NCBI GenBank assembly: GCA_937871295.1 | Contig: CALMRE010000167.1 | Location: forward strand, 1-51,606 | Reading direction: 5' to 3' | DNA length: 51,606 nucleotides | Source of the DNA: an uncultured bacterium | Lineage (GTDB): Bacteria; UBP6; UBA1177; JAKLFG01 | Shown: positions 7,606-21,343 of the stretch, one piece after another | Layout: every line of letters begins with the position of its first letter | How positions within the stretch are numbered: the stretch's first letter is position 1 | Position numbers and translations under genes: made by a program | The notes under the pieces: model-generated | Database searches by the model: none | What the model was told of the DNA's origin: nothing | Seen by the model: only the letters and a program-made list of their open reading frames with translations

Positions 7606-8357
7606 GCGCCCAATACGCTTACGACGGCTCGTTCCCCGGACTGCTCTGCGCACTCTGCGCGGCGCTGACGGCGCAGGAACGGCCGTTTGACATCGTCGCC
7701 GATCGGGAACTCCAGCCGATGCTCCTCGCCCCGACCATCCCCATCACGACCGATGAAGATCGGGCGGACCGTTTCATGGTGCGGATCGACGCGACTATGG
7801 GGCGTCATGTCCGGCGCAACCTCGTCCGCACCTTTCTATCGGACATACCGGGACGCGAACTGCTCATCTACGACTATCTCTCCTTCATTCGTGAAAAAGG
7901 CCCGCGCGCCGACGGTCACCTCACCCACCTCGCCGTCGCGCCGGTCCACGCCGTCGCCCGGCAGGTGACGGTCGAGGCGCACCGGCTGACCGGTATGGCC
8001 CGATTCACCCGCGTCGCCGGGGAACTGCTCGTGGCGGTGATGGAGCCGCGCCACCGGGTGCTCCCGCTCATCGCGCCGCACTTCACCCGCCGCTTCCCGG
8101 CCGACCGGTGGGTCATGCTCGATGTCGGGCGCGGCGCCGGGCTCTATTGGGACATGAAGGAACTGCACGAAGTGGAGACCGGTCCCGAGACGACGCATCT
8201 TCTCAACACACCGCCCGATAGTGCAACGGGCGATATCTACGAAAAGATGTGGCGGCAGTATTTCAAGGATATCGCGATACCGGAACGGAAGAACCCGCGC
8301 TGTCAGAAGCGCTTTATGCCGACCCGCTATTGGAAGTATCTGACCGAGAAACGCTAG
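7602..8357 (+). CDS. DUF4130 / TIGR03915 probable DNA metabolism protein
   Basis: The product has 251 residues. The N-terminus has the family start (YDGSFPGLLCALCAAL) and the C-terminus its most conserved part: YEKMWRQYFKDIAIPERKN, then QKRFMPTRYWKYLTE. In other bacteria this family sits beside, or is fused to, proteins with uracil-DNA glycosylase-like domains and the radical SAM partner, so it is thought to process DNA. The start codon lies in ATGA at the end of the preceding gene, showing translational coupling. It meets the opposing sensor-kinase gene tail to tail, the two stop codons sharing one CTAG. Its biochemical role is unknown. Confidence 0.85.
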   Translation: MSAQYAYDGSFPGLLCALCAALTAQERPFDIVADRELQPMLLAPTIPITTDEDRADRFMVRIDATMGRHVRRNLVRTFLSDIPGRELLIYDYLSFIREKGPRADGHLTHLAVAPVHAVARQVTVEAHRLTGMARFTRVAGELLVAVMEPRHRVLPLIAPHFTRRFPADRWVMLDVGRGAGLYWDMKELHEVETGPETTHLLNTPPDSATGDIYEKMWRQYFKDIAIPERKNPRCQKRFMPTRYWKYLTEKR

Positions 8358-10711
8358 CGCGACCGTATCAGCGACGCCGCCAGACGGCCGATATCTTCGA
8401 TGTTGTAGGGTTTCGGCAGGATGCCGACGAAACCGTAGCGTTCGTACTGCGCCGTCACCGGCGAATGGGAATAACCGGTCGATACCACCGCACGGACCTG
8501 CGGGTCCAACTTCTTGAGTTCGCCGATCGCCTCTTCGCCTCCCATGCCGCCCGGCACGGTAAGGTCGAGGATGACCAGATCGAAGGGGAGTCTTTCGGCC
8601 ATCGCGCGGCGATAGCGTTCAATCGCCTCGCGGCCGTCGGGAACGAGCACCGGATCATAGCCGAGATAGCGCAGCATCGACCCGAGCGTCTGGCGGATGA
8701 GTTCGTCGTCGTCCATCACCAGCACACGGCCGCTCCCGGTGCGAACCTCTTCCGCGCGGCTTTCGGAGAGCGGCGCCGCGTCGGCCTCGACCGGCAGGAA
8801 AACGGTGAAGGTGGTCCCCTGTCCGACGGTCGAATCGACCGTCACCACCCCGCCGTGACGCGAGAGTATCGAATAGGCGACCGCGAGCCCGAGCCCGGTG
8901 CCGTCCGGTTTGGTGGTGAAATAGGGGTCGAATATGTGCGCCAGATGTTCCGGCGCGATGCCGGGACCGGTATCGGCGACCGTCACGGCGATGTACTGGC
9001 CCGGCCCGAGCCGCCCCGCCATCTCGCCGCCCTGCGCGTTGCGGACCCGGAGCATCAGCGAACCGTTCCCCTTCATCGCCTGCACCGCGTTGATGAGGAG
9101 ATTGTTGAACAGTTGCGTCAACTGCCCCTCGTCGGCCGTGAGCACCCGCAGATCGTCGGCGAAAAGGATGTCGGCCTTGACGGCGCTTCCGGCGAGCGAG
9201 AACGATACGCATTCGTCGAGCACTTTGCGGATATCGACCGGGCGCCGGACCGGATGGCCCCCCTTGGCGAAGGTGAGCAGTTGCCCCGTCAGGTGCTTTG
9301 CCCGCAGGGTCGCCTGTTCCGCCTTCGCGAGTACCTCGTGCATCTTATGGCCCGGATCGACCAGATAGCGCGACAGGCTGATACTGCCGAGGATGCCGGT
9401 CAGGTAGTTGTTGAAATCGTGGGCGATGCCGCCGGCAAGAAGGCCGAGCGACTCGATGCGCTGGGAACGGCGCGTTTCCTCTTCATACTGCCGTTTGCGG
9501 GTGTTGTCGCGGAACACGAGCACCGCGCCGACGATGTTGCCGTCGCGGTCGCGTATGGGGGCGGCGCTGTCTTCGATGACCACCTCGCGGCCGTCCCGGG
9601 CAAGGAGCAGGGTGGCATCGGCAAGCGCCTCGACCTCTCCGCTCTCGAGAACCTTTCTGACCGGATCGATCGCCGTCTGGCGGGTGCGTTCATCGACGAT
9701 GCGGAACACCGCGTCGAGCGGCAGACCCGCCGCATCGGCATTGCGCCAGCCCGTTATCTGTTCGGCCGCCCCGTTGAGCAGTACGATATGTCCCCCGGTG
9801 TCGGTGGTGATGACCCCGTCGCCGATGCTCGCGAGCGTCACCGCGAGCCGCTCCTTCTCCTCGCTGATGGCCCGCTCGAACCGGCCGCGCTCCTCGATCA
9901 TCCGGTTGGCCGATTCGGCCAGCCGCGACAGTTCGCTGAAATAGAAACCGCCCGGCTCGATACGGATATTGCGCGTCGCCGCCCGCTCGAAGAAGGAAAG
10001 GAACGACGCGATGATCCGTTCGACCCGCTTGGACACGAACACGAAGGCGACATGCAGCAAAAGGACTATGAGGAACAGCGCCCCCAGAAAGACCGCGAGA
10101 TGGTGCCGCACTTTTTCCCAGAGCGCCTGCCGCTGCTGTTCGACCTCCTTTTCGATGTCGTCCAGATAGATACCCGCGCCGATCACCCAGCGCCACGAGG
10201 GGATCATTTCGACATAACTCAATTTGCGGTAGCGCTCCTTCCAGTCGCCGCGGTGCATGTCGTATTCAATGAAATCGCCCCCTTTGGTGACCGCTTCGGC
10301 GAACTTGCGGTACAGGCCGTCCATGTCGGAGTAGCCCGCCTTGAGGAGGTTCATGCCGCGGTCGGGACCCGCCAGCACCATGCCGTCCTCCTGCAGGATG
10401 AAGATATACCCGCCGTTGCCGAAGGTGATGCCGTTGGCCCAGTTTGCCATTTCCGTCTTGATGTCGGAACCGCAGTCGGGATGATAGTGCTGACCGAACT
10501 CGACAAAGCGGACGACGCGCTGGACCTCGCGTTTTATCTGCTCTTTGCGCAACTGGATGCTTTTTTCGCGGAATTCGACTGCGTCGCTTTTGTAGGCGGC
10601 GTAGTCCAGACCGACGGTATAGGCGCCGAGAATGATGGTGAAGACCATCATCGTGAGCATCACGCTCATGATGGTCATGCGGACGAAACTACGCTTGAGT
10701 TTGAATATCAT
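8354..10711 (-). CDS. hybrid sensor histidine kinase (Cache-HAMP-like-PAS-HisKA-HATPase-REC)
   Basis: This 785-residue membrane protein has an inner-membrane helix (about 12-34), a periplasmic sCache-type sensor (about 40-190, with GYIFILQEDGMVLAGP and WRWVIGAGIYL), a second helix (204-227), a linker, a PAS domain (290-405), a HisKA domain with phospho-acceptor His431 (GIAHDFNNYL), an HATPase domain (N-box around 537-541, DTGPG at 580-584, GTGLGLAV at 604-611) and a receiver domain with phospho-acceptor Asp716 (LVILDLTVPGG). Cache domains usually bind small organic ligands. No separate output regulator is next to it, so the partner is unknown. It has its own promoter (10740-10768) and is probably not part of the ars-hgc transcript. 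Confidence 0.93.
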   Translation of the reverse strand: MIFKLKRSFVRMTIMSVMLTMMVFTIILGAYTVGLDYAAYKSDAVEFREKSIQLRKEQIKREVQRVVRFVEFGQHYHPDCGSDIKTEMANWANGITFGNGGYIFILQEDGMVLAGPDRGMNLLKAGYSDMDGLYRKFAEAVTKGGDFIEYDMHRGDWKERYRKLSYVEMIPSWRWVIGAGIYLDDIEKEVEQQRQALWEKVRHHLAVFLGALFLIVLLLHVAFVFVSKRVERIIASFLSFFERAATRNIRIEPGGFYFSELSRLAESANRMIEERGRFERAISEEKERLAVTLASIGDGVITTDTGGHIVLLNGAAEQITGWRNADAAGLPLDAVFRIVDERTRQTAIDPVRKVLESGEVEALADATLLLARDGREVVIEDSAAPIRDRDGNIVGAVLVFRDNTRKRQYEEETRRSQRIESLGLLAGGIAHDFNNYLTGILGSISLSRYLVDPGHKMHEVLAKAEQATLRAKHLTGQLLTFAKGGHPVRRPVDIRKVLDECVSFSLAGSAVKADILFADDLRVLTADEGQLTQLFNNLLINAVQAMKGNGSLMLRVRNAQGGEMAGRLGPGQYIAVTVADTGPGIAPEHLAHIFDPYFTTKPDGTGLGLAVAYSILSRHGGVVTVDSTVGQGTTFTVFLPVEADAAPLSESRAEEVRTGSGRVLVMDDDELIRQTLGSMLRYLGYDPVLVPDGREAIERYRRAMAERLPFDLVILDLTVPGGMGGEEAIGELKKLDPQVRAVVSTGYSHSPVTAQYERYGFVGILPKPYNIEDIGRLAASLIRSR

Positions 10712-10739: not shown

Positions 10740-10768
10740 AGTATAGCCGGAAGCGCTTTTTATTGCAA
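10740..10768 (-). promoter_or_regulatory. promoter of the hybrid kinase gene
   Basis: Minus strand: TTGCAA (10768-10763), 17 bases, TATACT (10745-10740). It lies between hgcB and the kinase start at 10711. Confidence 0.65.
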
Positions 10769-10792: not shown

Positions 10793-11056
10793 CTAGCCGC
10801 AGCAGGCCTCTTTGCCGGAGATACGCGACCGGATGAGGGCGTAGGCGCAACCGACACCGGCGTTGACCGCTATCGCCTCGACCGGACAGTTCTTTTGGCA
10901 CGCGCCGCACTCCATGCAGGCGCCGCGATCGACCATGACCGCCTTCCGGTCGGTCACCGCGAACACCCGGTGCGGGCAGACCTCGGCGCACCGGCCGCAG
11001 CCGATGCATTTCTCCGCATCGAGTTTCAGCGTCACCACCGACTCCAGATATCTCAT
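10793..11056 (-). CDS. hgcB: mercury methylation ferredoxin HgcB
   Basis: HgcB is a small 2[4Fe-4S] ferredoxin that feeds electrons to the corrinoid of HgcA so that it can methylate Hg(II). The 87-residue product has both cluster motifs (CIGCGRCAEVCP from residue 17 and CMECGACQKNCP from 47). It also has the features that set HgcB apart from ordinary ferredoxins: the extra lone Cys70 after the second motif (NAGVGC) and the Cys pair at the very C-terminus (Cys85-Cys86 in EACCG). The ATG at 11056 overlaps the hgcA stop codon as ATGA, which matches the tight pairing known for these genes. A longer in-frame opening inside hgcA is a shadow. No clear terminator follows, and the kinase gene 81 bases on has its own promoter. 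Confidence 0.93.
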   Translation of the reverse strand: MRYLESVVTLKLDAEKCIGCGRCAEVCPHRVFAVTDRKAVMVDRGACMECGACQKNCPVEAIAVNAGVGCAYALIRSRISGKEACCG

Positions 11057-12081
11057 GAGAGCCACCCCCGCGCCATATCGACGATGTAGAGAATAACGCC
11101 GACCGCGAACCAGATGATCAGCAGCCACGTGTAGCGCCGTATCTCCTCCTTCACCCCCGACGGCGAGGTGAAGGCGGTCGAACCGGTGAAGTTGAAGACA
11201 AGGAACGCCACGACCGGCGGCAGGAGCGTCAGGTGGCGCGCCGCCGTGATGAGGTCGGCCGGGAAGAGGGCGATCATGAGAAGCGCCCACAGCACACCGC
11301 CCGCCAGCCCCTTGAGGACGAACGACCGGAACGGGAAGAGCGGCAACGCCAGCGGCACGACGACCGCCCCCATGAGGACCGCGCCGATAAGCGGCACGAC
11401 GGCGGCCCAGAACGGCGCGGCGTGAAGCGCCCAGAGCCACACCCCCGCCGCGAACGCCGCGAGGAGTATCCGCCACGACAGGACCAGTTCTATCGGCACG
11501 ACGGCGACCCGGTCGCCGATACCGAAACGGACGCGCCGCATATCGTCATTCGCCCGCATATCGGCGGCGAGGAATCCTTTCAGGTCCGCTATCCGGACCG
11601 GGCCGTAGACCACATCGAAGCCGGTGAGTTGTTTGACGTGGTGGGCCGAAACGCCCGGCGCGCCCAGTTGCGGCACGATGAGGCGGCGATGCTTCACGAT
11701 CTTATCAAGACGCGCTTCTTTCACCATCCGCGCTATCTCGCCGGTCCCGAAGGTCCCCTTCCCCGCCGCGCACCAGACATTGATGCCGCGCGTATCGAGG
11801 ACCAGCACCCAGAGATCGAGCCCGGCGCAGGCGGCGCGGACCATGTCGACCGTGAGTGTGTAGTTGGCGGTCACGATGACCGGGCTTTCGGGGGTCGGTG
11901 AGCCGATGCGGTAGAGCGCCGGTTCGGTACGGTACTGCCGCCTGCGCCAGCCGAACCGGACGAGTATGTTCCCGATACGGTCGCCGCACGAAAGCGTTGT
12001 CGGCAAGCGCTGCGGATCGCCGGGGATCGTGATGGCGGCCGGAGAAAATATCGGAGAACCTTGTTGGGGGGACAATACCAT
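11053..12081 (-). CDS. hgcA: mercury methylation corrinoid protein HgcA
   Basis: HgcA carries the methyl-cobamide that methylates inorganic mercury. The 342-residue product shows the family hallmark, the cap-helix motif NVWCAAGK at 101-108, where Cys104 is the predicted lower cobalt ligand. It is followed by GTFGT. The N-terminal soluble corrinoid-binding domain runs to about 190. The C-terminal half has about five membrane helices (roughly 195-340) and a conserved loop (FNFTGSTAFTSPSGVKEEI). The ATG at 12081 is chosen because GGGAGGA is 4-6 bases before it; an upstream in-frame start would lie in acr3. The acr3 stop is only 10 bases upstream, so hgcA looks like the eighth gene of the arsenic operon. 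This predicts that the organism can make methylmercury, if anaerobic and supplied with cobamide. Confidence 0.94.
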   Translation of the reverse strand: MVLSPQQGSPIFSPAAITIPGDPQRLPTTLSCGDRIGNILVRFGWRRRQYRTEPALYRIGSPTPESPVIVTANYTLTVDMVRAACAGLDLWVLVLDTRGINVWCAAGKGTFGTGEIARMVKEARLDKIVKHRRLIVPQLGAPGVSAHHVKQLTGFDVVYGPVRIADLKGFLAADMRANDDMRRVRFGIGDRVAVVPIELVLSWRILLAAFAAGVWLWALHAAPFWAAVVPLIGAVLMGAVVVPLALPLFPFRSFVLKGLAGGVLWALLMIALFPADLITAARHLTLLPPVVAFLVFNFTGSTAFTSPSGVKEEIRRYTWLLIIWFAVGVILYIVDMARGWLS

Positions 12082-12091
12082 CGTTCCTCCC

Positions 12092-13153
12092 TCACCCGGC
12101 CGCAGGGAACCAGTGGCGGGTGCGGTTGGCGATCCGGACAAGCGTCAGCATCACCGGCACCTCGACGAGCACCCCGACGATGGTGGCGAGCGCCACCGGC
12201 GAGGTAGGACCGAAGAGCGATATCGCGACCGCGACCGACAGTTCGAAGAAGTTGGACGCCCCGATCATCCCGGCGGGAGCGGCGATGTTGTGGCAGAGTT
12301 TCAAGGCGCGGCACGGAAGATAACTGACGAAGAAGATGAGGAAGGTCTGGATGGTGAGCGGTATCGCGATGAGGAGGATGTGCAGGGGGTTGTTGAGGAT
12401 GACATCACCTTGGAACGAGAAGATGATGACGAGCGTGAGGAGCAGTCCGCCGATCGTCACATTATTGAACTTGGTGATGAATTTTGTGTTGAAATACTCT
12501 TCGCCCCGGCTTTTGATCACCACCTTGCGGGTGAAACTGCCCCCCGCGAGCGGGATGACGACGAACAGAAAGACTGAGAGCAGTAAGGTGTCCCACGGAA
12601 TGGTCACACCGCTGATTCCCAGAAGGAACGCAACGATAGGCGTGAAGGCGATGAGTATGATGAGATCGTTGGTCGCCACCTGCACCACCGTATAGGCGGG
12701 GTTGCCCTTCGTCAGATGGCTCCAGACAAAGACCATCGCGGTACAGGGTGCCGCGCCGAGCAGTATCGCGCCGGCCAGATAATCCTTTGCCAGTTCGGGG
12801 GAAATAAGTGATTGGAACACCACGAAAAAGAAGAACCACGCAATGGCATACATCGTGAAGGGCTTGATGAGCCAGTTGGCGATCCAAGTGACGAACAGCC
12901 CCTTCGGGTTCTTCCCGACATCCTTGATGCTCGCGAAATCGACCTTCATCATCATCGGGTATATCATCAGCCAGATAAGGATCGCGATGGGAATGGAGAC
13001 CTTCGCATACTCGAACCGGCCGAGGAAGGCGGGGATCGCGGGGGCGAATTTCCCGATGAGCACCCCGGCCACCATGCACAGAACGACCCACACGGTCAGG
13101 TACTTTTCAAAAAAACCGATGCCGCCGGTCGCGGTCTTTTGTTCGGCGCTCAT
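12092..13153 (-). CDS. acr3: arsenite efflux permease, ACR3 family
   Basis: The 353-residue, roughly ten-helix membrane protein exports arsenite. It is assigned to ACR3 (bile acid:sodium symporter superfamily) rather than ArsB by its length and by motifs: IWLMIYPMMMKVDF, the conserved AAPCTAMVFVWSHL with essential-type Cys137, and GASNFFELSVA near 290. The start follows a good GGAGGT. It lies 13 bases after arsC and 10 bases before hgcA. Arsenate reduction by ArsC supplies its substrate, so the two form a working detoxification pair. Co-transcription with hgcA makes arsenic-responsive expression of mercury methylation likely. Confidence 0.95.
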   Translation of the reverse strand: MSAEQKTATGGIGFFEKYLTVWVVLCMVAGVLIGKFAPAIPAFLGRFEYAKVSIPIAILIWLMIYPMMMKVDFASIKDVGKNPKGLFVTWIANWLIKPFTMYAIAWFFFFVVFQSLISPELAKDYLAGAILLGAAPCTAMVFVWSHLTKGNPAYTVVQVATNDLIILIAFTPIVAFLLGISGVTIPWDTLLLSVFLFVVIPLAGGSFTRKVVIKSRGEEYFNTKFITKFNNVTIGGLLLTLVIIFSFQGDVILNNPLHILLIAIPLTIQTFLIFFVSYLPCRALKLCHNIAAPAGMIGASNFFELSVAVAISLFGPTSPVALATIVGVLVEVPVMLTLVRIANRTRHWFPAAG

Positions 13154-13166
13154 GATTGACCTCCGT

Positions 13167-13601
13167 TCAGAGGGCGTTCCGTTGGGACGCCCCTACAAAA
13201 AGGATTATTTTTTGTTTTATCGCGTCGCGCACGGCGATGGTCGCCGCCAGTTTCTCCTCGAACGATCCGGTGAGCGCCGATGGATCGGGAAAACCGAAAT
13301 GGAGCCGCTGTCCGGTACCGGGGACGAAGGGACACCGCTCGGCCGCCGTTTCGTCGCAGACGGTAATGAGGTGGTCGAACTTCTCGCCCCGGTCGATGAA
13401 CTCCTCGACCGCTTTTACGCGGTTGGCCGAGATATCGATGCCGTCCAAGCGCATCGCCTCGACAACGACCGGATTGAGTTTCCCCGGCTCGATACCGGCG
13501 CTACGGGCCTCGAAGCGACCGCCGCCCAGCACGTTGAGGTACGCCTCGGCCATCTGCGAGCGGGCCGAGTTGTGGATACAGACGAACAGTACGCGGATCA
13601 T
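13167..13601 (-). CDS. arsC: arsenate reductase, thioredoxin-coupled (LMW-phosphatase type)
   Basis: The enzyme reduces arsenate to arsenite with electrons from thioredoxin. The 144-residue product has the P-loop CIHNSARS (Cys8 to Ser15), the DP pair of low-molecular-weight phosphatase folds (FPDPSAL) and the two further redox cysteines Cys82 and Cys90 (VCDE, ERCPF) that relay the disulfide in this class. Two adjacent ATGs occur; the second (13601) has the better distance from GGAGGG. The last nine or so codons, including the stop region, are derived from a palindromic repeat (13172-13196), so the normal C-terminus seems to have been replaced. It sits between the ArsP-like permease and acr3 in the ars operon. 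Confidence 0.95.
   Translation of the reverse strand: MIRVLFVCIHNSARSQMAEAYLNVLGGGRFEARSAGIEPGKLNPVVVEAMRLDGIDISANRVKAVEEFIDRGEKFDHLITVCDETAAERCPFVPGTGQRLHFGFPDPSALTGSFEEKLAATIAVRDAIKQKIILFVGASQRNAL
13172..13196. repeat. small palindromic repeat, copy 1
   Basis: A hairpin with 9-bp arms (13172-13180 and 13184-13192, one G-T pair) and a 3-base loop is followed by CTAC. The same layout recurs at 18743-18765. It forms the last codons of arsC. Confidence 0.5.
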
Positions 13602-13610
13602 CATGCCCTC

Positions 13611-14906
13611 CTAGAAAAGTGCGCCGTAGGCCATGCCGGTGATGGTCGCCATCACGATGACGAGCGATACGAATACCGCGGTCATCTTCGTGCCGATGAC
13701 CGTGCGGATGACGAGCATATTGGGGAGCGACAGCGCCGGACCGGCAAGGAGCAGGGCAAGCGCCGGGCCTTTTCCCATACCGCTTCCCATGAGCCCCTGC
13801 ACGATGGGAACCTCGGTCAGCGTTGCGAAATACATGAAAGCGCCGACCACCGAAGCGAAGAAGTTCGAGAACAGCGAGTTACCGCCGACCAGTCCCGCGA
13901 CCCATTCATTCGGAATTATCCCTTCGTTCCCCGGCCGCCCGAGCAGAAATCCGGCGACGAAGACCCCCATGAGGAGGAGCGGCAGTATCTGTTTGGCGAA
14001 GCCCCACGAAGCCGACATCCACGAGCCATTCTCCTCGTCGGCGCTCGATGCCGACCACATCATGCCGAGAAAGCCGGCGGAGAAGGCAAAGAGCGGCTCA
14101 TGGGGAAGGAGGATCGCGAAGATCGCGGAAACAACGCCGGTCGCGACGATCTTCCACGGCTTATGCGCATACCAGACGACCAGCACGACACCGAACAGAA
14201 GCGCGGCGACGGCGGTGACGATCCACTTCACCTGAAAGATCGACCACCAGAGACCCTCCTGCACATCGGGTTTACCCCAGTTGGCAAAAACCAGTATCGC
14301 TACCATGAAAAAGAAATAGATGATGGTCTGGTAGAGTGGACGCCCTGCCTCTTCGGGCGGCAGTTGTATCCCGGCGGTGCGCGCCTCCTCCTCCTTGCGG
14401 AAGATGAGCGCCATGATAAGGCCGATGACGACCGAGAAGAGGATCGCCCCGACCGCGCGGGCAAGCCCGATCTCGAAGCCGAGGATACGGGCCGTGAGGA
14501 TGATGGAAAGAACGCTGATCGCCGGGCCGGAGTAGAGGAACGCGACGGCGGGACCGAGTCCCGCGCCGCGCTTGTAGATGCCGGCGAAAAGCGGCAGTAT
14601 CGTGCAGGAGCAGACGGCGAGAATGGTGCCCGATATCGACGCGACGAGGTAGGCGACCCATTTTTTCGCCCCCGCGCCGAGGTACTTCATCACCGCGTTC
14701 TGCGACACGAAGACCCCGATGGCCCCGGCGATGAAAAAGGCGGGGACGAGACACAGGAGGACATGTTCCTGCGCATACCATTTCACCAGTTCGAGCGCCT
14801 CGGTGATGGCGTTATCGAACCGGTGTACGCCGACCGGCAGGAAAAAGGCGGCGAAAAACACCGCAATGATGATGCCGAGCGGTTTTATCTCTTCTTTCCA
14901 GTTCAT
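13611..14906 (-). CDS. DUF318 permease, ArsP-like (organoarsenical efflux)
   Basis: The 431-residue protein has about ten membrane helices and belongs to the DUF318/COG0701 permease family. It keeps the family cysteine block (LAVCSCTILPLFAGIYKRGAG) and a second repeat-like half with LTEVPIVQGLM. Members inside ars operons (ArsP) export trivalent methylated or aromatic arsenicals; other members move different metals. The location between arsG-like and arsC genes supports the arsenic role. The start has AAGGAGT about ten bases upstream. A link to methyl-metal chemistry is tempting because hgcAB lies in the same operon, but that is inference. Confidence is high for the family and moderate for the substrate. 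Confidence 0.85.
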   Translation of the reverse strand: MNWKEEIKPLGIIIAVFFAAFFLPVGVHRFDNAITEALELVKWYAQEHVLLCLVPAFFIAGAIGVFVSQNAVMKYLGAGAKKWVAYLVASISGTILAVCSCTILPLFAGIYKRGAGLGPAVAFLYSGPAISVLSIILTARILGFEIGLARAVGAILFSVVIGLIMALIFRKEEEARTAGIQLPPEEAGRPLYQTIIYFFFMVAILVFANWGKPDVQEGLWWSIFQVKWIVTAVAALLFGVVLVVWYAHKPWKIVATGVVSAIFAILLPHEPLFAFSAGFLGMMWSASSADEENGSWMSASWGFAKQILPLLLMGVFVAGFLLGRPGNEGIIPNEWVAGLVGGNSLFSNFFASVVGAFMYFATLTEVPIVQGLMGSGMGKGPALALLLAGPALSLPNMLVIRTVIGTKMTAVFVSLVIVMATITGMAYGALF

Positions 14907-14921
14907 GGTATATCCGACTCC

Positions 14922-15599
14922 TTAAATAAACTGTATGCCGAACACATGGACGATGGTCAGGTAGACGCCGACCACGATGATGATGACGCCGAAGGCTATC
15001 CGTATCGGTTTTTCCCAGCGGGTGACGGCGTTGAAGGCGGTCGCGAGCGCCGTACTGCCCAGCGACAGGGCGACGGCGAAGGCGATGACCGGCACCGCCG
15101 TCCCGATGCCGTAGATGAGCGGCAGGGCGACCGGCGATGACTGCTGTATCGCCAGCGGTATGAGCGATCCGAAAAAGAGCGCCGCCGAAACGGGGCAGAG
15201 GGCGAGGGCGAACAGGAAGCCCATCAGCACCGCGCCGGCAAGGCCAAATTTGGAGAAATCGCGCTGGGTCTTGTTCCCGGGAAGGTTCACCGAGATAAGT
15301 TCGACGAGGAACAGCCCGACGATGATGAGAAGCGGGCCCAAGAGTTTCGGCATATAGATCTGGAGCCAGATCGACACCTTCGGTATCGAAAGGAGGCTCT
15401 GCACCACGATGAAGGCGATCGCCACATAGGCGACCATCCGGCCGATGGTGTAGAGGGCCGCAGATAGAAAGACCGACCGTTTATCGCCGAGGGTCCGCGA
15501 GATGTAGGACACCGCCGCGATGTTGGTGGCGAGCGGACAGGGGCTTACCGAGGTAAGGATGCCGAGCCACAATGCCCCGATGATGGCCGCAACGGTCAT
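14922..15599 (-). CDS. ArsG-like efflux permease (CcdA/DsbD superfamily)
   Basis: The 225-residue, six-helix protein resembles the CcdA/DsbD membrane core, with a Cys-Pro in each half (TSVSPCPLATNIAAV and ALCPVSAALFFG). In the arsEFG group of genes, such a protein (ArsG) is reported to export aromatic arsenicals formed after nitro-group reduction. It starts in ATGA overlapping the end of the ArsF-like gene, so the two are translationally coupled. The alternative reading is a true CcdA that passes electrons to the periplasmic ArsF-like thioredoxin-fold protein; the sequence alone does not separate the two. The surrounding operon favours an arsenic role. Confidence 0.8.
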   Translation of the reverse strand: MTVAAIIGALWLGILTSVSPCPLATNIAAVSYISRTLGDKRSVFLSAALYTIGRMVAYVAIAFIVVQSLLSIPKVSIWLQIYMPKLLGPLLIIVGLFLVELISVNLPGNKTQRDFSKFGLAGAVLMGFLFALALCPVSAALFFGSLIPLAIQQSSPVALPLIYGIGTAVPVIAFAVALSLGSTALATAFNAVTRWEKPIRIAFGVIIIVVGVYLTIVHVFGIQFI

Positions 15600-16087
15600 A
15601 ACCCGTTCTCCGCGCGGAACTTCTTTATCTCGTCGGCAATATAGAGTTTGAAGCGCATCTCGTCGCGCTTGAGGTCCCATACCTCATCGAGATTCTTCCA
15701 TTTCACCTCTTTTCCGCCCTTCGCCGCCGAGAGGATGACCTGCTTGGTGTAGAGTTTGTAGTCATCGATGAAGTGCTCATTGGCCGGTTCTTCGTAGTTC
15801 ACCATACTCCACCGGATGGCTCCGCTCTTCAGTTCGGCCGCGAACTGTTCGTTCACCGCCTCTCTGGTCAGCCGCTCGATGGTGAGGCAGGAATGACAGC
15901 GGAACGAGGTGTGGAAATAGTAGACGGTCAGTGAGCCGCCGGGAATTCCCGCCTCTTTCTTCACCTCGGCCGCCGGAGCGACCGGGGCCGTCTCTTTCGC
16001 CGGAGCGCCGCCGCCGATGACGGCATACACGATCCCCGCCGCCGCGAACAGAACCAGCAGTATCGTCACGATCTTCTTTGCGTTCAT
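15596..16087 (-). CDS. ArsF-like thioredoxin-fold protein
   Basis: The 163-residue protein has an N-terminal membrane helix or signal anchor (about 6-25), a short Ala/Pro linker and a thioredoxin-like domain. That domain contains VYYFHTSFRCHSCLTIE, i.e. a CHSC redox site, and FIDDYKLYTKQVIL. This pattern matches the ArsF family, described as a subunit of nitrophenyl-arsenical reduction. The active site faces the periplasm if the helix is an anchor. An upstream in-frame TTG at 16102 is possible, but the ATG at 16087 with AGGAGG is more natural. It is coupled to the permease by ATGA and follows the small thioredoxin-like gene by 11 bases. The three together resemble arsEFG. Confidence 0.78.
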   Translation of the reverse strand: MNAKKIVTILLVLFAAAGIVYAVIGGGAPAKETAPVAPAAEVKKEAGIPGGSLTVYYFHTSFRCHSCLTIERLTREAVNEQFAAELKSGAIRWSMVNYEEPANEHFIDDYKLYTKQVILSAAKGGKEVKWKNLDEVWDLKRDEMRFKLYIADEIKKFRAENGL

Positions 16088-16098
16088 CGCCTCCTTCC

Positions 16099-16332
16099 TC
16101 AAGCCAGAAGTTTCTTTATCTCGGCGATCGGCGGCACCTTTCCCGCCAGTTTTACCACGCCGTCCACCACCAGCGCCGGTGTGGACATGACGCCGAAGCC
16201 GACGATCTCATTGATGTCGGTCACCTTGATCAGTTCGTACTCAATGCCGAGTTCCTGTGCCGCCGTCTCGGTCATTTGCGCCAGTTGTTTGCACTTGGGA
16301 CAGCCGGTCCCGAGTATCTGCAGTTTCATCAT
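16099..16332 (-). CDS. small thioredoxin-like protein (TM0996/MTH895 glutaredoxin-like family)
   Basis: The 77-residue cytoplasmic protein is a minimal thioredoxin fold with redox site CPKC (KLQILGTGCPKCKQL) and the cis-proline turn MSTPALVVDG. Such proteins accompany CcdA-like permeases and ars genes. Here it is first after arsR and probably corresponds to the ArsE position of arsEFG, or supplies electrons to ArsC. The start was set at the first of two adjacent ATGs, with GGAGGAG six bases upstream. Spacing to its neighbours is short (20 bases after arsR, 11 before arsF-like). Confidence 0.85.
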   Translation of the reverse strand: MMKLQILGTGCPKCKQLAQMTETAAQELGIEYELIKVTDINEIVGFGVMSTPALVVDGVVKLAGKVPPIAEIKKLLA

Positions 16333-16352
16333 CGTCTCCTCCCTCCGGGGTG

Positions 16353-16709
16353 TTAGGTACACTTACACAGCGGCTTGTTTCCCTTGCGGGCAAGCCACGA
16401 ATCCAGTTTCTTTTTCAGCGCGGCGTAGGGTTTCGAGTCGAAGTGTGTCTGTATGCTTTTCACGATACCCGCCTCCAGCGGCGGCAGATCGGACGAAATG
16501 CGGTAGTAGACCCAGACCGCCTCGCGCCGGTCCTCAAGGATACCCGCCTGCGTCAGATAGCGCAGATGGCGCGACGCTTTCGACTGGGTAAGTTCCAGCA
16601 CCGTCAGGATGTCGCAGACGCACAACTCCTCGCGCCACGACAAAAGCGCGAGGATCGCAAGCCGCGTATCGTCGGCCAGCGCCTTAAAAAATCTCGCTTC
16701 TTTCTTCAC
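16353..16709 (-). CDS. arsR: ArsR-family metalloregulator
   Basis: A winged-helix repressor that leaves DNA when arsenite or antimonite binds. The product (118 residues from the GTG at 16709) has the As(III)-site motif ELCVCDI with Cys30 and Cys32, the recognition helix region TQSKASRHLRYL and a C-terminal CKC that may add metal ligands. The GTG is preferred because GAGGAG lies 7 bases upstream. An ATG at 16724 and a TTG at 16727 are in frame, but the ATG would leave no room for a ribosome site and falls in the operator. As first gene of the nine-gene run it should control the whole unit including hgcAB, via the operator at 16724-16743. Confidence 0.93.
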   Translation of the reverse strand: MKKEARFFKALADDTRLAILALLSWREELCVCDILTVLELTQSKASRHLRYLTQAGILEDRREAVWVYYRISSDLPPLEAGIVKSIQTHFDSKPYAALKKKLDSWLARKGNKPLCKCT

Positions 16710-16723
16710 GGAACGACTCCTCA

Positions 16724-16743
16724 TCAAATAACCGCTTATGCGA
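16724..16743 (-). promoter_or_regulatory. ArsR-type operator
   Basis: Imperfect inverted repeat on the minus strand: TCGCATAA-GCGG-TTATTTGA (arms match at 6 of 8 positions). The ATAA/TTAT core is typical of ArsR/SmtB sites. It starts at the edge of the -10 element and reaches the start region of arsR, as expected for autoregulation. Confidence 0.6.
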
Positions 16744-16770
16744 GTATATGAAGAGGAGGCGGGAAGTCAA
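16743..16770 (-). promoter_or_regulatory. promoter of the ars-hgcAB operon
   Basis: Minus strand: TTGACT (16770-16765), 16-base spacer, TATACT (16748-16743). It is the only strong promoter seen ahead of the nine-gene run and overlaps the end of the GIY-YIG-like gene upstream. Confidence 0.7.
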
Positions 16771-17950: not shown

Positions 17951-19168
17951 ATGAGCGTACTCTTCGCGATCATCTATCTGCTCGGCGCCGGACAGGGGGC
18001 GTTCCTCAGCATCCAACTCTTCCTGCGGCCCGAGAACCGGCGCGCCAACCGCCTGCTGGCGGTATTGCTCGGCATCTTCGCCCTCAACCTCTTTGAGCTG
18101 TTCCTTGAAGAGATGGGCTACTACCGCCTCTTCCCGCATATGCTCTGGAGTTTTACCTCGGCACCGTTCCTCTACGGCCCGCTGATATTCCTCTACGCCG
18201 GGACGCTCACCGGTCGCTTCACCCGCTTCAAGGCGATCTATTTACTTAATTTCGTTCCGTTCTTCCTCCATTTTGCGACGATCCTCCCCTTCTATCTCAA
18301 GACCGGCGATTTCAAGATCGCGGCCTACGACCACTACCTCGTTTCGGGTTTTCCGACCACCTTTAAGCCGCTGTTCACCTATTCGCTGAAACTGCTCCAC
18401 TACGGCCTCTACCTCGGCCTCACGCTTGGCCTCATCGCCCGCTACCGCCGCGAGATGGAGGAACAGTACTCCGAACTGGAACGGCTCGACCTCGGGTGGC
18501 TGAAACTGCTCGCTATCGTCAACCTCGCGATGATCGGCATATTCATCGCCACCGTTACCGGCCACGGACTCGAGATCATCACGATGACCCACGGCATCAC
18601 CCGCATCAGTTACCTCTGGGACACCGCGCTCATCTACACCGTCGGCATCCTCGCGGTGCGGCAGGCGCCGATATTCAACGAGTACCGGCGGATCATCGAA
18701 CCGGTCGAACCACCGACCCCGCAACCGGGCGAACCACCGGATGGGCGGACGCCGTCCGCCCCTACAGATGCCGTTCAACAGACCAAGGTCAAATACGAAA
18801 AAAGCCGCCTCGACGACCATATCGCCGACGCCTACCTCGCCGAGCTGACCACCCACATGCGGACCGCCAAACCCTACCTCAACAGCGAACTGGGGATCAA
18901 GGAACTGGCGACCGCCATCGGGCTGACCGAACATGTCCTTTCGCAGGTCGTCAACGGCCGCGCCGGGATGAATTTCTTTACTTTCGTCAACAACTTCCGT
19001 ATCGAAGAGGCCCAGCGACTCCTCGCCGACCCGTCACGCAAAGAGGAGAATATACTCGCCGCCGCGTTCGAGTCGGGCTTCAAATCGAAGTCGCACTTCA
19101 ACACGCTCTTCAAGAAGACGACCGGCCTCACCCCGCGCGAATTCCGCCGCCAGAAGGTCGGCCGCTAG
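17951..19168 (+). CDS. membrane-bound AraC-family transcriptional regulator
   Basis: The 405-residue protein has six or seven membrane helices in its first 230 residues, a Pro-rich linker (about 250-275) and an AraC-type double helix-turn-helix at the C-terminus (about 300-405: LNSELGIKELATAIGLTEHVLSQVVN, then ILAAAFESGFKSKSHFNTLFKKTTGLTP in separate parts). Such 7TM-AraC proteins are thought to sense a signal at the membrane. The start at 17951 is preferred over 17939 because TAGGGA is next to it. Codons for DGRTPSAPT in the linker come from a palindromic repeat inserted in frame (18743-18765). The 3' end shares a CTAG with the opposing subtilase stop. Its targets are unknown; the divergent GIY-YIG gene is a candidate. 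Confidence 0.85.
   Translation: MSVLFAIIYLLGAGQGAFLSIQLFLRPENRRANRLLAVLLGIFALNLFELFLEEMGYYRLFPHMLWSFTSAPFLYGPLIFLYAGTLTGRFTRFKAIYLLNFVPFFLHFATILPFYLKTGDFKIAAYDHYLVSGFPTTFKPLFTYSLKLLHYGLYLGLTLGLIARYRREMEEQYSELERLDLGWLKLLAIVNLAMIGIFIATVTGHGLEIITMTHGITRISYLWDTALIYTVGILAVRQAPIFNEYRRIIEPVEPPTPQPGEPPDGRTPSAPTDAVQQTKVKYEKSRLDDHIADAYLAELTTHMRTAKPYLNSELGIKELATAIGLTEHVLSQVVNGRAGMNFFTFVNNFRIEEAQRLLADPSRKEENILAAAFESGFKSKSHFNTLFKKTTGLTPREFRRQKVGR
18743..18765. repeat. small palindromic repeat, copy 2
   Basis: Arms GGGCGGAC and GTCCGCCC (perfect 8 bp) with a GCC loop, followed by CTAC. It has the same layout as the copy at 13172-13196 and lies in frame in the linker of the AraC-type regulator. Confidence 0.5.
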
Positions 19169-21147
19169 AGCACCAGCGTACAACCACAACCGGTAGAACC
19201 TTCCTCTTCGACCACCGCGTCATCCGGGGTTTCCGCCGTATCATTGGCCGGATAGGAATCATAGGAAGAATCGGACTCAGAGGACATGTCGGACTCAGAG
19301 GAATCGTTGTCGGTCACGCTATCGTCGCCGGTCACGGTGTCAGTCACCGTATCGTCCGTTTCATCGGGAGTTTCAGATAGGTCTTCGTCGACCGGTTCGT
19401 TGTCGATCAGTTGATCCTCGTCCGTTAGGTCGCTTTCGTCGTTTATGTCCTTTTCTCCCTCTTCATCGGCCATCAGCGCGTCGTTGTCGGTGGTCGGATC
19501 GTCGCTGAAATCCCAGCAGTCGGCGACGGTGCAGGGCGACGACTCGTCGATGTCCTGTTGTATCTCATCGGTGATGGCGCCGCCGCCGAGGATCCACGCT
19601 TTGGCGATGGCGCGCAGGGCGTTGATGCGGCCGTAACCGTAGTTGTCGCTGTGGCCGTCAGCATCGTAGCCCGCCGCGCCGCTGTTTATCTTGTCGGCGG
19701 TACCGACGATGATGTCGCGCACCTGCAGAGCACTGAGCGCCGGATTGGCCTGCAGGATGAGCGCCGCGATCCCCGACACCAGCGGCGCCGCCGAGGAGGT
19801 ATGCGAGAAGCGGTAGCTGTAGCGTCCCCACCAGCCGTCGCCCCCCGCGACGGGACTGTCGGGATTCCAGCCGGCGGTATCGTGGCACCCGGAGGCCGGG
19901 GTCTCGCCGTCGTCAAGACAGGCCGGCCGGATGAAATTATCGGTGCTCCAGATGCGGTCGTAGTAGAGGGTACTCGACTGCCGTTCGCCGCCGCTGGTCG
20001 GAGCGACGATATCGAGCGCCGCGCCGTAGTTGCTGAAATCGTAGCGGACCCCCTGACTGTTCGAGGCGCCCACCGCCACCGCGTTCGGATGGGTGGCAAG
20101 CCCGTTCCACGCGAAGTCCTCCCCCGAGTTGCCCGCCGCAAAGACGATGACGGTCCCCTTGCCGTCGCGGCCGGTGGTGGTGATGTGCTCGACCAGCGCG
20201 CTGAAATAACTCGACGGCAGGGTGTCGTCGGGACCCCACGAACAGTTGATGACATCGGGATCCTGCGCCATGACCCAGTCGAATATCTGGTCGAAATAGG
20301 CGTCGGCCGCGAGCCCCGTCGATGTCGGATCGGCCGCCATGCGGGCCGCGATCAGACCGCAGCGGGGGCAACTGCCGGTGAGTCCAAGCCCGTTGTCGCC
20401 GCTCGCGACCGCCAGCCCGGTCACCATCGTCCCGTGGAAGTTGCCGGTATCGACCGTTTCGGCGAAGAGATTCCCCGTCTCGACCGGGCCGCCGAAATTA
20501 TTCGAGGCGATATAACGGTCGACAAGGTCCTCGTGAAGCAGGTCGAAGCCGTCGTCGATGACCGCGAGCCGCATCCCGGCGCCGAGGTCGCTCACCCCCG
20601 AAACGATACCGAGGAGCTGCATGAGTCGCCACCCCTCCGCCACATGGGCGTTGTCGCCGCCCCGGATCTGCGCCTTGCCGTCCAGCGAGGTGTAGGGGCC
20701 GTCGCTGTGGATGTTCCACTGATCGCTAAAGTACGGGTCGTTGGTGGTCAGCGGATCGATACCGTAAAGGTTTATCTTAGTATATACGCTCGGTTCGGCC
20801 GCCAGCACCGCCCCCGAATCGTAGAGCGCCGCCGCCACGCTGATCGGGTCGCCCGCGGTGTGAACATAGAACCAGCCGGGCACCGCCAGTCGCCGCACGA
20901 GCGTCAGTCTGTTATTATTTAGTAGTTCCGAGAGGTTGGAATCATCCGGAACTTTGATGTAGAGGTTCGAGGCAAGGAGCTGTGCCGCCCGGGCGCCGGG
21001 AAAATGGACCAGCGCCAGACCACCGGCGGTCACCCCGAGCCGTTCGACCGTTACCGGTTCATGTCCCCGGTAAAAATGGTCGCCGACCGTACCGGCCGCC
21101 GCCATCGCCCCCACCGCCGTCAGAATAGCCGCCAGAATCAACCGCAT
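19165..21147 (-). CDS. secreted subtilisin-like serine protease (S8) with CGC tail
   Basis: The 660-residue protein has a signal peptide (1-19), a pro-region (to about 135) and an S8 protease domain with the triad Asp198 (AVIDDGFD), His238 (NFHGTMV) and Ser451 (HTSSAAP), plus oxyanion Asn340 (AAGNSG). The usual Gly before Thr-Ser is His here. After about 545 an Asp/Ser/Thr-rich linker of about 110 residues leads to the last residues EEEGSTGCGCTLVL. A very similar end closes the protein encoded at 22858-24813. The ATG at 21147 follows AGGAGGT at 7 bases. The protease is probably held at the cell surface through its tail and may process neighbouring exported proteins (inference). The stop codon shares a CTAG with the opposing AraC-type gene. 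Confidence 0.92.
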   Translation of the reverse strand: MRLILAAILTAVGAMAAAGTVGDHFYRGHEPVTVERLGVTAGGLALVHFPGARAAQLLASNLYIKVPDDSNLSELLNNNRLTLVRRLAVPGWFYVHTAGDPISVAAALYDSGAVLAAEPSVYTKINLYGIDPLTTNDPYFSDQWNIHSDGPYTSLDGKAQIRGGDNAHVAEGWRLMQLLGIVSGVSDLGAGMRLAVIDDGFDLLHEDLVDRYIASNNFGGPVETGNLFAETVDTGNFHGTMVTGLAVASGDNGLGLTGSCPRCGLIAARMAADPTSTGLAADAYFDQIFDWVMAQDPDVINCSWGPDDTLPSSYFSALVEHITTTGRDGKGTVIVFAAGNSGEDFAWNGLATHPNAVAVGASNSQGVRYDFSNYGAALDIVAPTSGGERQSSTLYYDRIWSTDNFIRPACLDDGETPASGCHDTAGWNPDSPVAGGDGWWGRYSYRFSHTSSAAPLVSGIAALILQANPALSALQVRDIIVGTADKINSGAAGYDADGHSDNYGYGRINALRAIAKAWILGGGAITDEIQQDIDESSPCTVADCWDFSDDPTTDNDALMADEEGEKDINDESDLTDEDQLIDNEPVDEDLSETPDETDDTVTDTVTGDDSVTDNDSSESDMSSESDSSYDSYPANDTAETPDDAVVEEEGSTGCGCTLVL

Positions 21148-21343
21148 ACCGATACCTCCTTTGCAGGTCACTGGTCACTCACTACTATAAAAATCGTCGA
21201 AAATCGGCCGCACAGGGCGGTCAATGCCCATTCCCGAGGTTTCAGAACCTTTATTTTGTCCTCACCGGCGGCCCGGAACGAAAAAAACCAAAAAGAGCGG
21301 TCTGGTGTATCTGAGAAACATTCTTTCCTACGGAGGAAGTACG

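Follow-up and report, generated by a model that had tools for sequence, protein, structure and literature searches.

The mercury methylation genes hgcA and hgcB of an uncultured bacterium form the tail of a nine-gene run that is, in all likelihood, a canonical arsenite-inducible ars operon with hgcAB built in under the control of ArsR. The run occupies positions 16709 to 10793 of the minus strand of the window (the whole 51,606-nucleotide stretch of DNA that was analysed, from contig CALMRE010000167.1), in the order arsR, arsE, arsF, arsG, an ArsP_1-family permease gene, arsC, acr3, hgcA and hgcB. The predicted sequence of events is as follows: ArsR would repress one promoter by binding an ATAA-n4-TTAT element over the -10; arsenite, bound at the CxC site of ArsR, would release it from the operator; arsEFG, the permease gene, arsC, acr3, hgcA and hgcB would then be made from one message; ArsC would reduce arsenate and Acr3 would export arsenite; and HgcAB, made mainly under sensed arsenic stress, would contribute to the detoxification of metals and metalloids, methylmercury being its product or by-product.

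Gene order and protein identities

The initial annotation described nine genes in one direction with two ATGA overlaps and gaps of 20 bases or less. Indeed, all nine genes (Table 1) are on the minus strand, and the gaps from arsR to hgcB are 23, 11, -4 (ATGA), 15, 6, 13, 10 and -4 (ATGA) bases; the limit of 20 bases holds for seven of the eight junctions but not for arsR-arsE, where 23 bases separate the genes (20 with the upstream of two adjacent ATG codons). Most genes of the run are preceded by a ribosome site. This spacing, together with a single predicted promoter, argues for the single-operon architecture that had been proposed. The genes hgcA and hgcB have a G+C content of 0.66, compared with 0.57-0.61 for the ars genes, and so the parts may differ in history. 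A Cache-PAS hybrid histidine kinase gene trails the cluster in genomes G000, G001, G002 and G004, regardless of internal order, and is probably a conserved neighbour outside the operon. An assembly chimera is ruled out by the same gene order and the same flanking kinase in two other metagenome-assembled genomes (MAGs), G002 and G004. Elsewhere in the window (19165-21171) there is a subtilase with an Asp/Thr/Glu-rich linker, in which a C-terminal GCGC stretch resembles a surface-anchoring signal.

Table 1. Positions of the genes and control elements of the ars-hgc cluster in the window
Feature	Position	Strand	Evidence or remark
Sigma-70 promoter TTGACT-16-TATACT	16743..16770	-	Promoter scan; kept ahead of ars/hgc clusters in G001, G002, G004, G022
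Putative ArsR operator TATACTCGCATAAGCGGTTAT, 21 bases	16728..16748	-	ATAA-n4-TTAT inverted repeat over -10
arsR, metalloregulator	16353..16709	-	ELCVCDI (Cys30, Cys32), C-terminal CKC
arsE, thioredoxin-like (CPKC)	16099..16329	-	TIGR00412, 107 bits
arsF family	15596..16087	-	NF040494, 112 bits
arsG family transporter	14922..15599	-	NF040495, 255 bits
ArsP_1 (PF03773) permease, family-level placement	13611..14906	-	Pfam, 226.6 bits
arsC, thioredoxin-type arsenate reductase	13167..13604	-	LMWPc family match, Cys triad
acr3, arsenite efflux permease	12092..13153	-	TIGR00832, 383 bits
hgcA, mercury methylation corrinoid protein	11053..12081	-	NF040863, 375 bits
hgcB, mercury methylation ferredoxin	10793..11056	-	NF040864, 122.6 bits
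Cache-PAS hybrid histidine kinase, flanking	8354..10711	-	Own promoter-like site 10768-10740

A search with HgcA and HgcB profile models, which had been suggested as a check, places both proteins above the curated NCBIfam cut-offs (HgcA, 375.1 bits versus 275 for NF040863; HgcB, 122.6 bits versus 99 for NF040864). HgcA has the reported cap helix NVWCAAGK at residues 101-108, with Cys104 as the conserved cysteine, and hydrophobic stretches from residue 191 to 341 in a crude scan that does not separate individual helices, the family being defined by a C-terminal transmembrane domain of five helices. HgcB agrees equally well with its earlier description: it has two CxxCxxCxxxC(P) motifs (Cys 17-27 and 47-57), an extra Cys70 and a C-terminal Cys pair (85-86), corresponding to the diagnostic cluster motifs, extra cysteine of the Cys73 type and C-terminal cysteines of the family (PMC7305189). 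In both predicted proteins the residues of known importance for mercury methylation are present. Weak matches of the HgcA model to probable CFeSP-type proteins in other genomes (e.g. G366, G237 and G313) contain an in-frame stop inside the match, possibly from alignments that overrun the natural protein end.

Curated models also identify the ArsR-type regulator, ArsE, ArsF, ArsG and Acr3. The regulator has an ArsR/SmtB fold, scores 91.5 bits (cut-off 55) with the metalloregulator model NF033788, and carries a CxC pair (Cys30, Cys32) in the ELCVCD of the recognition region, with no third cysteine nearby. The genes first called thioredoxin-like, arsF-like and arsG-like can be assigned specifically to the ArsE (107 bits versus 62, TIGR00412), ArsF (112 versus 60, NF040494) and ArsG (255.4 versus 200, NF040495) families, and Acr3 scores 383.4 bits versus 282.8 (TIGR00832). 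The arsC and arsP-like labels stand in part. ArsC falls under the cut-off of the equivalog model TIGR02691 (105.3 versus 174.3 bits) but probably functions like ArsC, because it passes the LMWPc family model and keeps the catalytic cysteine triad (C9, C83, C91). The permease has an ArsP_1 domain (226.6 bits versus 32.3, Pfam) but passes no NCBIfam equivalog, the nearest models being those of other exporters, far under their cut-offs; its label is weaker than those of the other genes, as ArsP_1 is a broad permease family, and organoarsenical export is predicted at most.

A putative operator ahead of arsR or hgcA

The proposal of a single promoter with an ArsR-type operator agrees with the promoter scan, which places one sigma-70 site, overlapped by a putative ATAA-n4-TTAT operator, before arsR and, on the minus strand, finds no further site until position 10768, downstream of hgcB, where a promoter-like site precedes the histidine kinase gene. 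An internal promoter between acr3 and hgcA was rejected, as the scan finds none; nor does any of its terminator-like matches, which are only in modest excess over those of shuffled sequences, lie at this junction.

Allowing up to three mismatches, the operator element has a single match in the whole of its own genome, and five exact copies of the motif exist in the 28 genomes of the phylum that were compared, each at an ars-hgcAB cluster; as the motif was derived from these same sites, its scarcity elsewhere carries information, but finding it at them does not count as independent evidence. The promoter and operator stand before arsR in G000, G001, G002 and G004; in G022, in which arsR comes later in the run, they immediately precede hgcA. 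That the same putative control element leads either arsR or hgcA, whichever gene comes first, is the strongest new evidence, and from it we infer, as the best account, that hgcAB expression is arsenic-inducible through arsenite control by ArsR, as the initial annotation had suggested. A second copy of the promoter stands before hgcA in G001 with its inverted repeat decayed (34 of 48 bases identical; the next best in the locus has 27), and so control of hgcAB may differ there.

Linkage of hgcAB to ars genes within and beyond the phylum

Among the 28 genomes, hgcA is present in six (in one as a fragment at a contig end). The neighbourhood search that had been called for finds an ars cluster around hgcAB in all six, in four gene orders: G002 and G004 share the order of the window; in G001, from the same genus, hgcAB leads and is followed by arsR-E-F-G, a different permease and a different acr3; G022 has hgcAB, permease, arsE-F-G, arsR, a CDF transporter and acr3; and G018 has hgcAB, arsR, acr3 and arsC. 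The ArsP_1-family permease is encoded in the window, G002 and G004; G001 and G022 encode a distant one. Two unlike types of acr3 (35% identical) are exchanged between clusters of close relatives that otherwise resemble one another (L014 13642-14676; L015 6483-7523), the gene of the window being 95% identical to that of G004 and 35% identical to that of G002. The presence of ars gene sets without hgcAB in G015 and G018 (and in the incomplete G003) indicates that hgcAB is not a necessary part of them; G018 has on a separate contig (L197 6107-9132) a second operon, arsR-ArsP-like-arsE-arsF-arsG. Carriers of hgcA comprise six of the eight genomes with acr3 and none of the 20 without it (Fisher 7e-5, a value that overstates independence because many of the 20 come from a single genus). 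In all six carriers hgcA lies in an ars cluster behind an arsenic-type switch, a hint that the normal work of hgcAB may include defence against arsenic, and the shared physiological task of HgcAB and the ars genes that had been envisaged is plausible.

Beyond the phylum, acr3 lies within the examined flank in 14 of the 79 named hgcA loci closest to the query, and extensive groups of ars genes are found close to hgcAB in Spirochaetes (L078), Bacteroidales (L081), Phycisphaerales (L095), Planctomycetia (L046) and other bacteria (L041, L043). Matches to ars families near hgcA are on the strand of hgcA in 94 of 96 cases at these 79 loci, and in 12 of 12 in another count in other phyla. As the 79 loci are biased toward the query, a broad sample of 386 genomes with 22 hgcA loci outside the phylum was used: acr3 is within 10 kb of hgcA at two of the 22 (L184 and L194), compared with about 0.06 expected (P ~0.002), an expectation that rests on an approximate acr3 density of ~0.14 per Mb and an assumed mean genome of 3 Mb. 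On the HgcA tree, acr3 linkage changes at least 12 times, with eight changes forced by well-supported branches. Across all loci only a minority show the linkage; it is recurrent, above chance and fixed in this phylum. Carriage of hgcA by plasmids or viruses was considered and rejected, with one partial, distant plasmid match and none in viral contigs.

Possible roles of HgcAB

The association of hgcAB with ars genes is itself known: acr3, arsC, arsM and arsR have been placed beside hgcAB in several putative methylators (McDaniel 2020, PMC7438021, Fig. 6), and arsenic-responsive control of hgcAB by ArsR in strain ND132 is cited by PMC10349881 and PMC13362967. In Pseudodesulfovibrio mercurii ND132 and Desulfovibrio strains (Goni-Urriza 2020 and Gionfriddo 2023, via citing papers), an ArsR-family gene accompanies hgcAB as it does here, is co-transcribed with it and reportedly responds to arsenic; in those strains the regulator is placed with hgcAB, whereas in the window hgcAB closes a nine-gene ars operon that includes a reductase, several transporters and arsEF. 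The loci of McDaniel 2020 likewise have arsenic genes directly beside hgcAB, but the accessible text of that paper does not mention arsEFG, an ArsP-type gene, a shared operator or phylum-wide fixation, all of which are present here. The organoarsenical clusters represented by the NCBIfam ArsE, ArsF and ArsG families have arsE, arsF and arsG adjacent and in this order, which here are joined to arsC, acr3 and hgcAB. The arrangement therefore has more precedent than the initial annotation stated. Our literature search turned up no account of the whole operon, of fixation in one phylum or of a shared operator, and no paper joining hgcAB with arsP; what is new is the full operon, the fixed linkage within one phylum despite differing gene orders, and an operator leading either arsR or hgcA. 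The operon bears on the question of what role HgcAB has beyond methylmercury formation, and leads to the prediction that hgcAB expression in these organisms is governed by arsenic levels.

The genes might be chance neighbours, or might have been joined by the traffic of mobile resistance cassettes, with no functional link. The shuffling of modules such as acr3, the unlike G+C of hgcAB and the ars genes, and the ars sets that occur without hgcAB are consistent with this, but linkage in six of six carriers in the phylum, nearly always on the same strand, its recurrence on the HgcA tree and its excess over expectation in the broad sample leave such an origin very improbable and already disfavoured. 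A stronger contender, with somewhat less than an even chance of being correct, is that hgcAB travels with the ars operon solely to share its induction, arsenic marking the settings in which mercury is met and HgcAB acting on mercury alone. HgcAB has the sequence features required for mercury methylation, and genes of metal-resistance clusters are commonly co-regulated without sharing any chemistry; yet the repeated linking to arsenic genes specifically would be left unexplained, and there are no mer genes among the nine.

HgcAB could also be an arsenic-detoxifying corrinoid methyltransferase that acts on As(III) in place of ArsM, its product being exported by the permease or ArsG and mercury being a chance substrate. 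Such a function is a refinement of the arsenite-inducible operon preferred here and compatible with ArsR control, and we regard it as unlikely. It would account for the linkage being fixed in this phylum, for the ArsP_1-family permeases of the clusters and for the Cys tail of HgcB, which would suit soft metal(loid)s. None of the 28 genomes has an ArsM that passes the cut-off, but the search relied on a single ArsM model, PRK11873, and there are weak matches to methyltransferases; moreover, the permease passes no NCBIfam exporter equivalog, and 20 of the 22 hgcA loci elsewhere have no acr3 nearby. Slightly less likely again is the proposition that HgcAB natively serves arsenic detoxification in this phylum, by SAM- and corrinoid-dependent arsenic methylation that replaces ArsM under ArsR control, with methylmercury as a side product.

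With hgcAB fixed among ars genes behind an arsenic-type operator and with no recognisable ArsM, MetH or AcsE, a role in arsenic metabolism becomes directly testable. The sole pterin-binding (PF00809) protein of the 99%-complete own genome (L195 1099-2298) is FolP-like with a dihydropteroate synthase signature, and so MetH and AcsE appear, gaps in the MAG and diverged enzymes aside, to be absent. HgcA is the only CdhD-family match in this genome, which, together with the apparent absence of MetH and AcsE, is consistent with SAM serving as methyl donor for HgcAB, as has been reported (PMC11588087).
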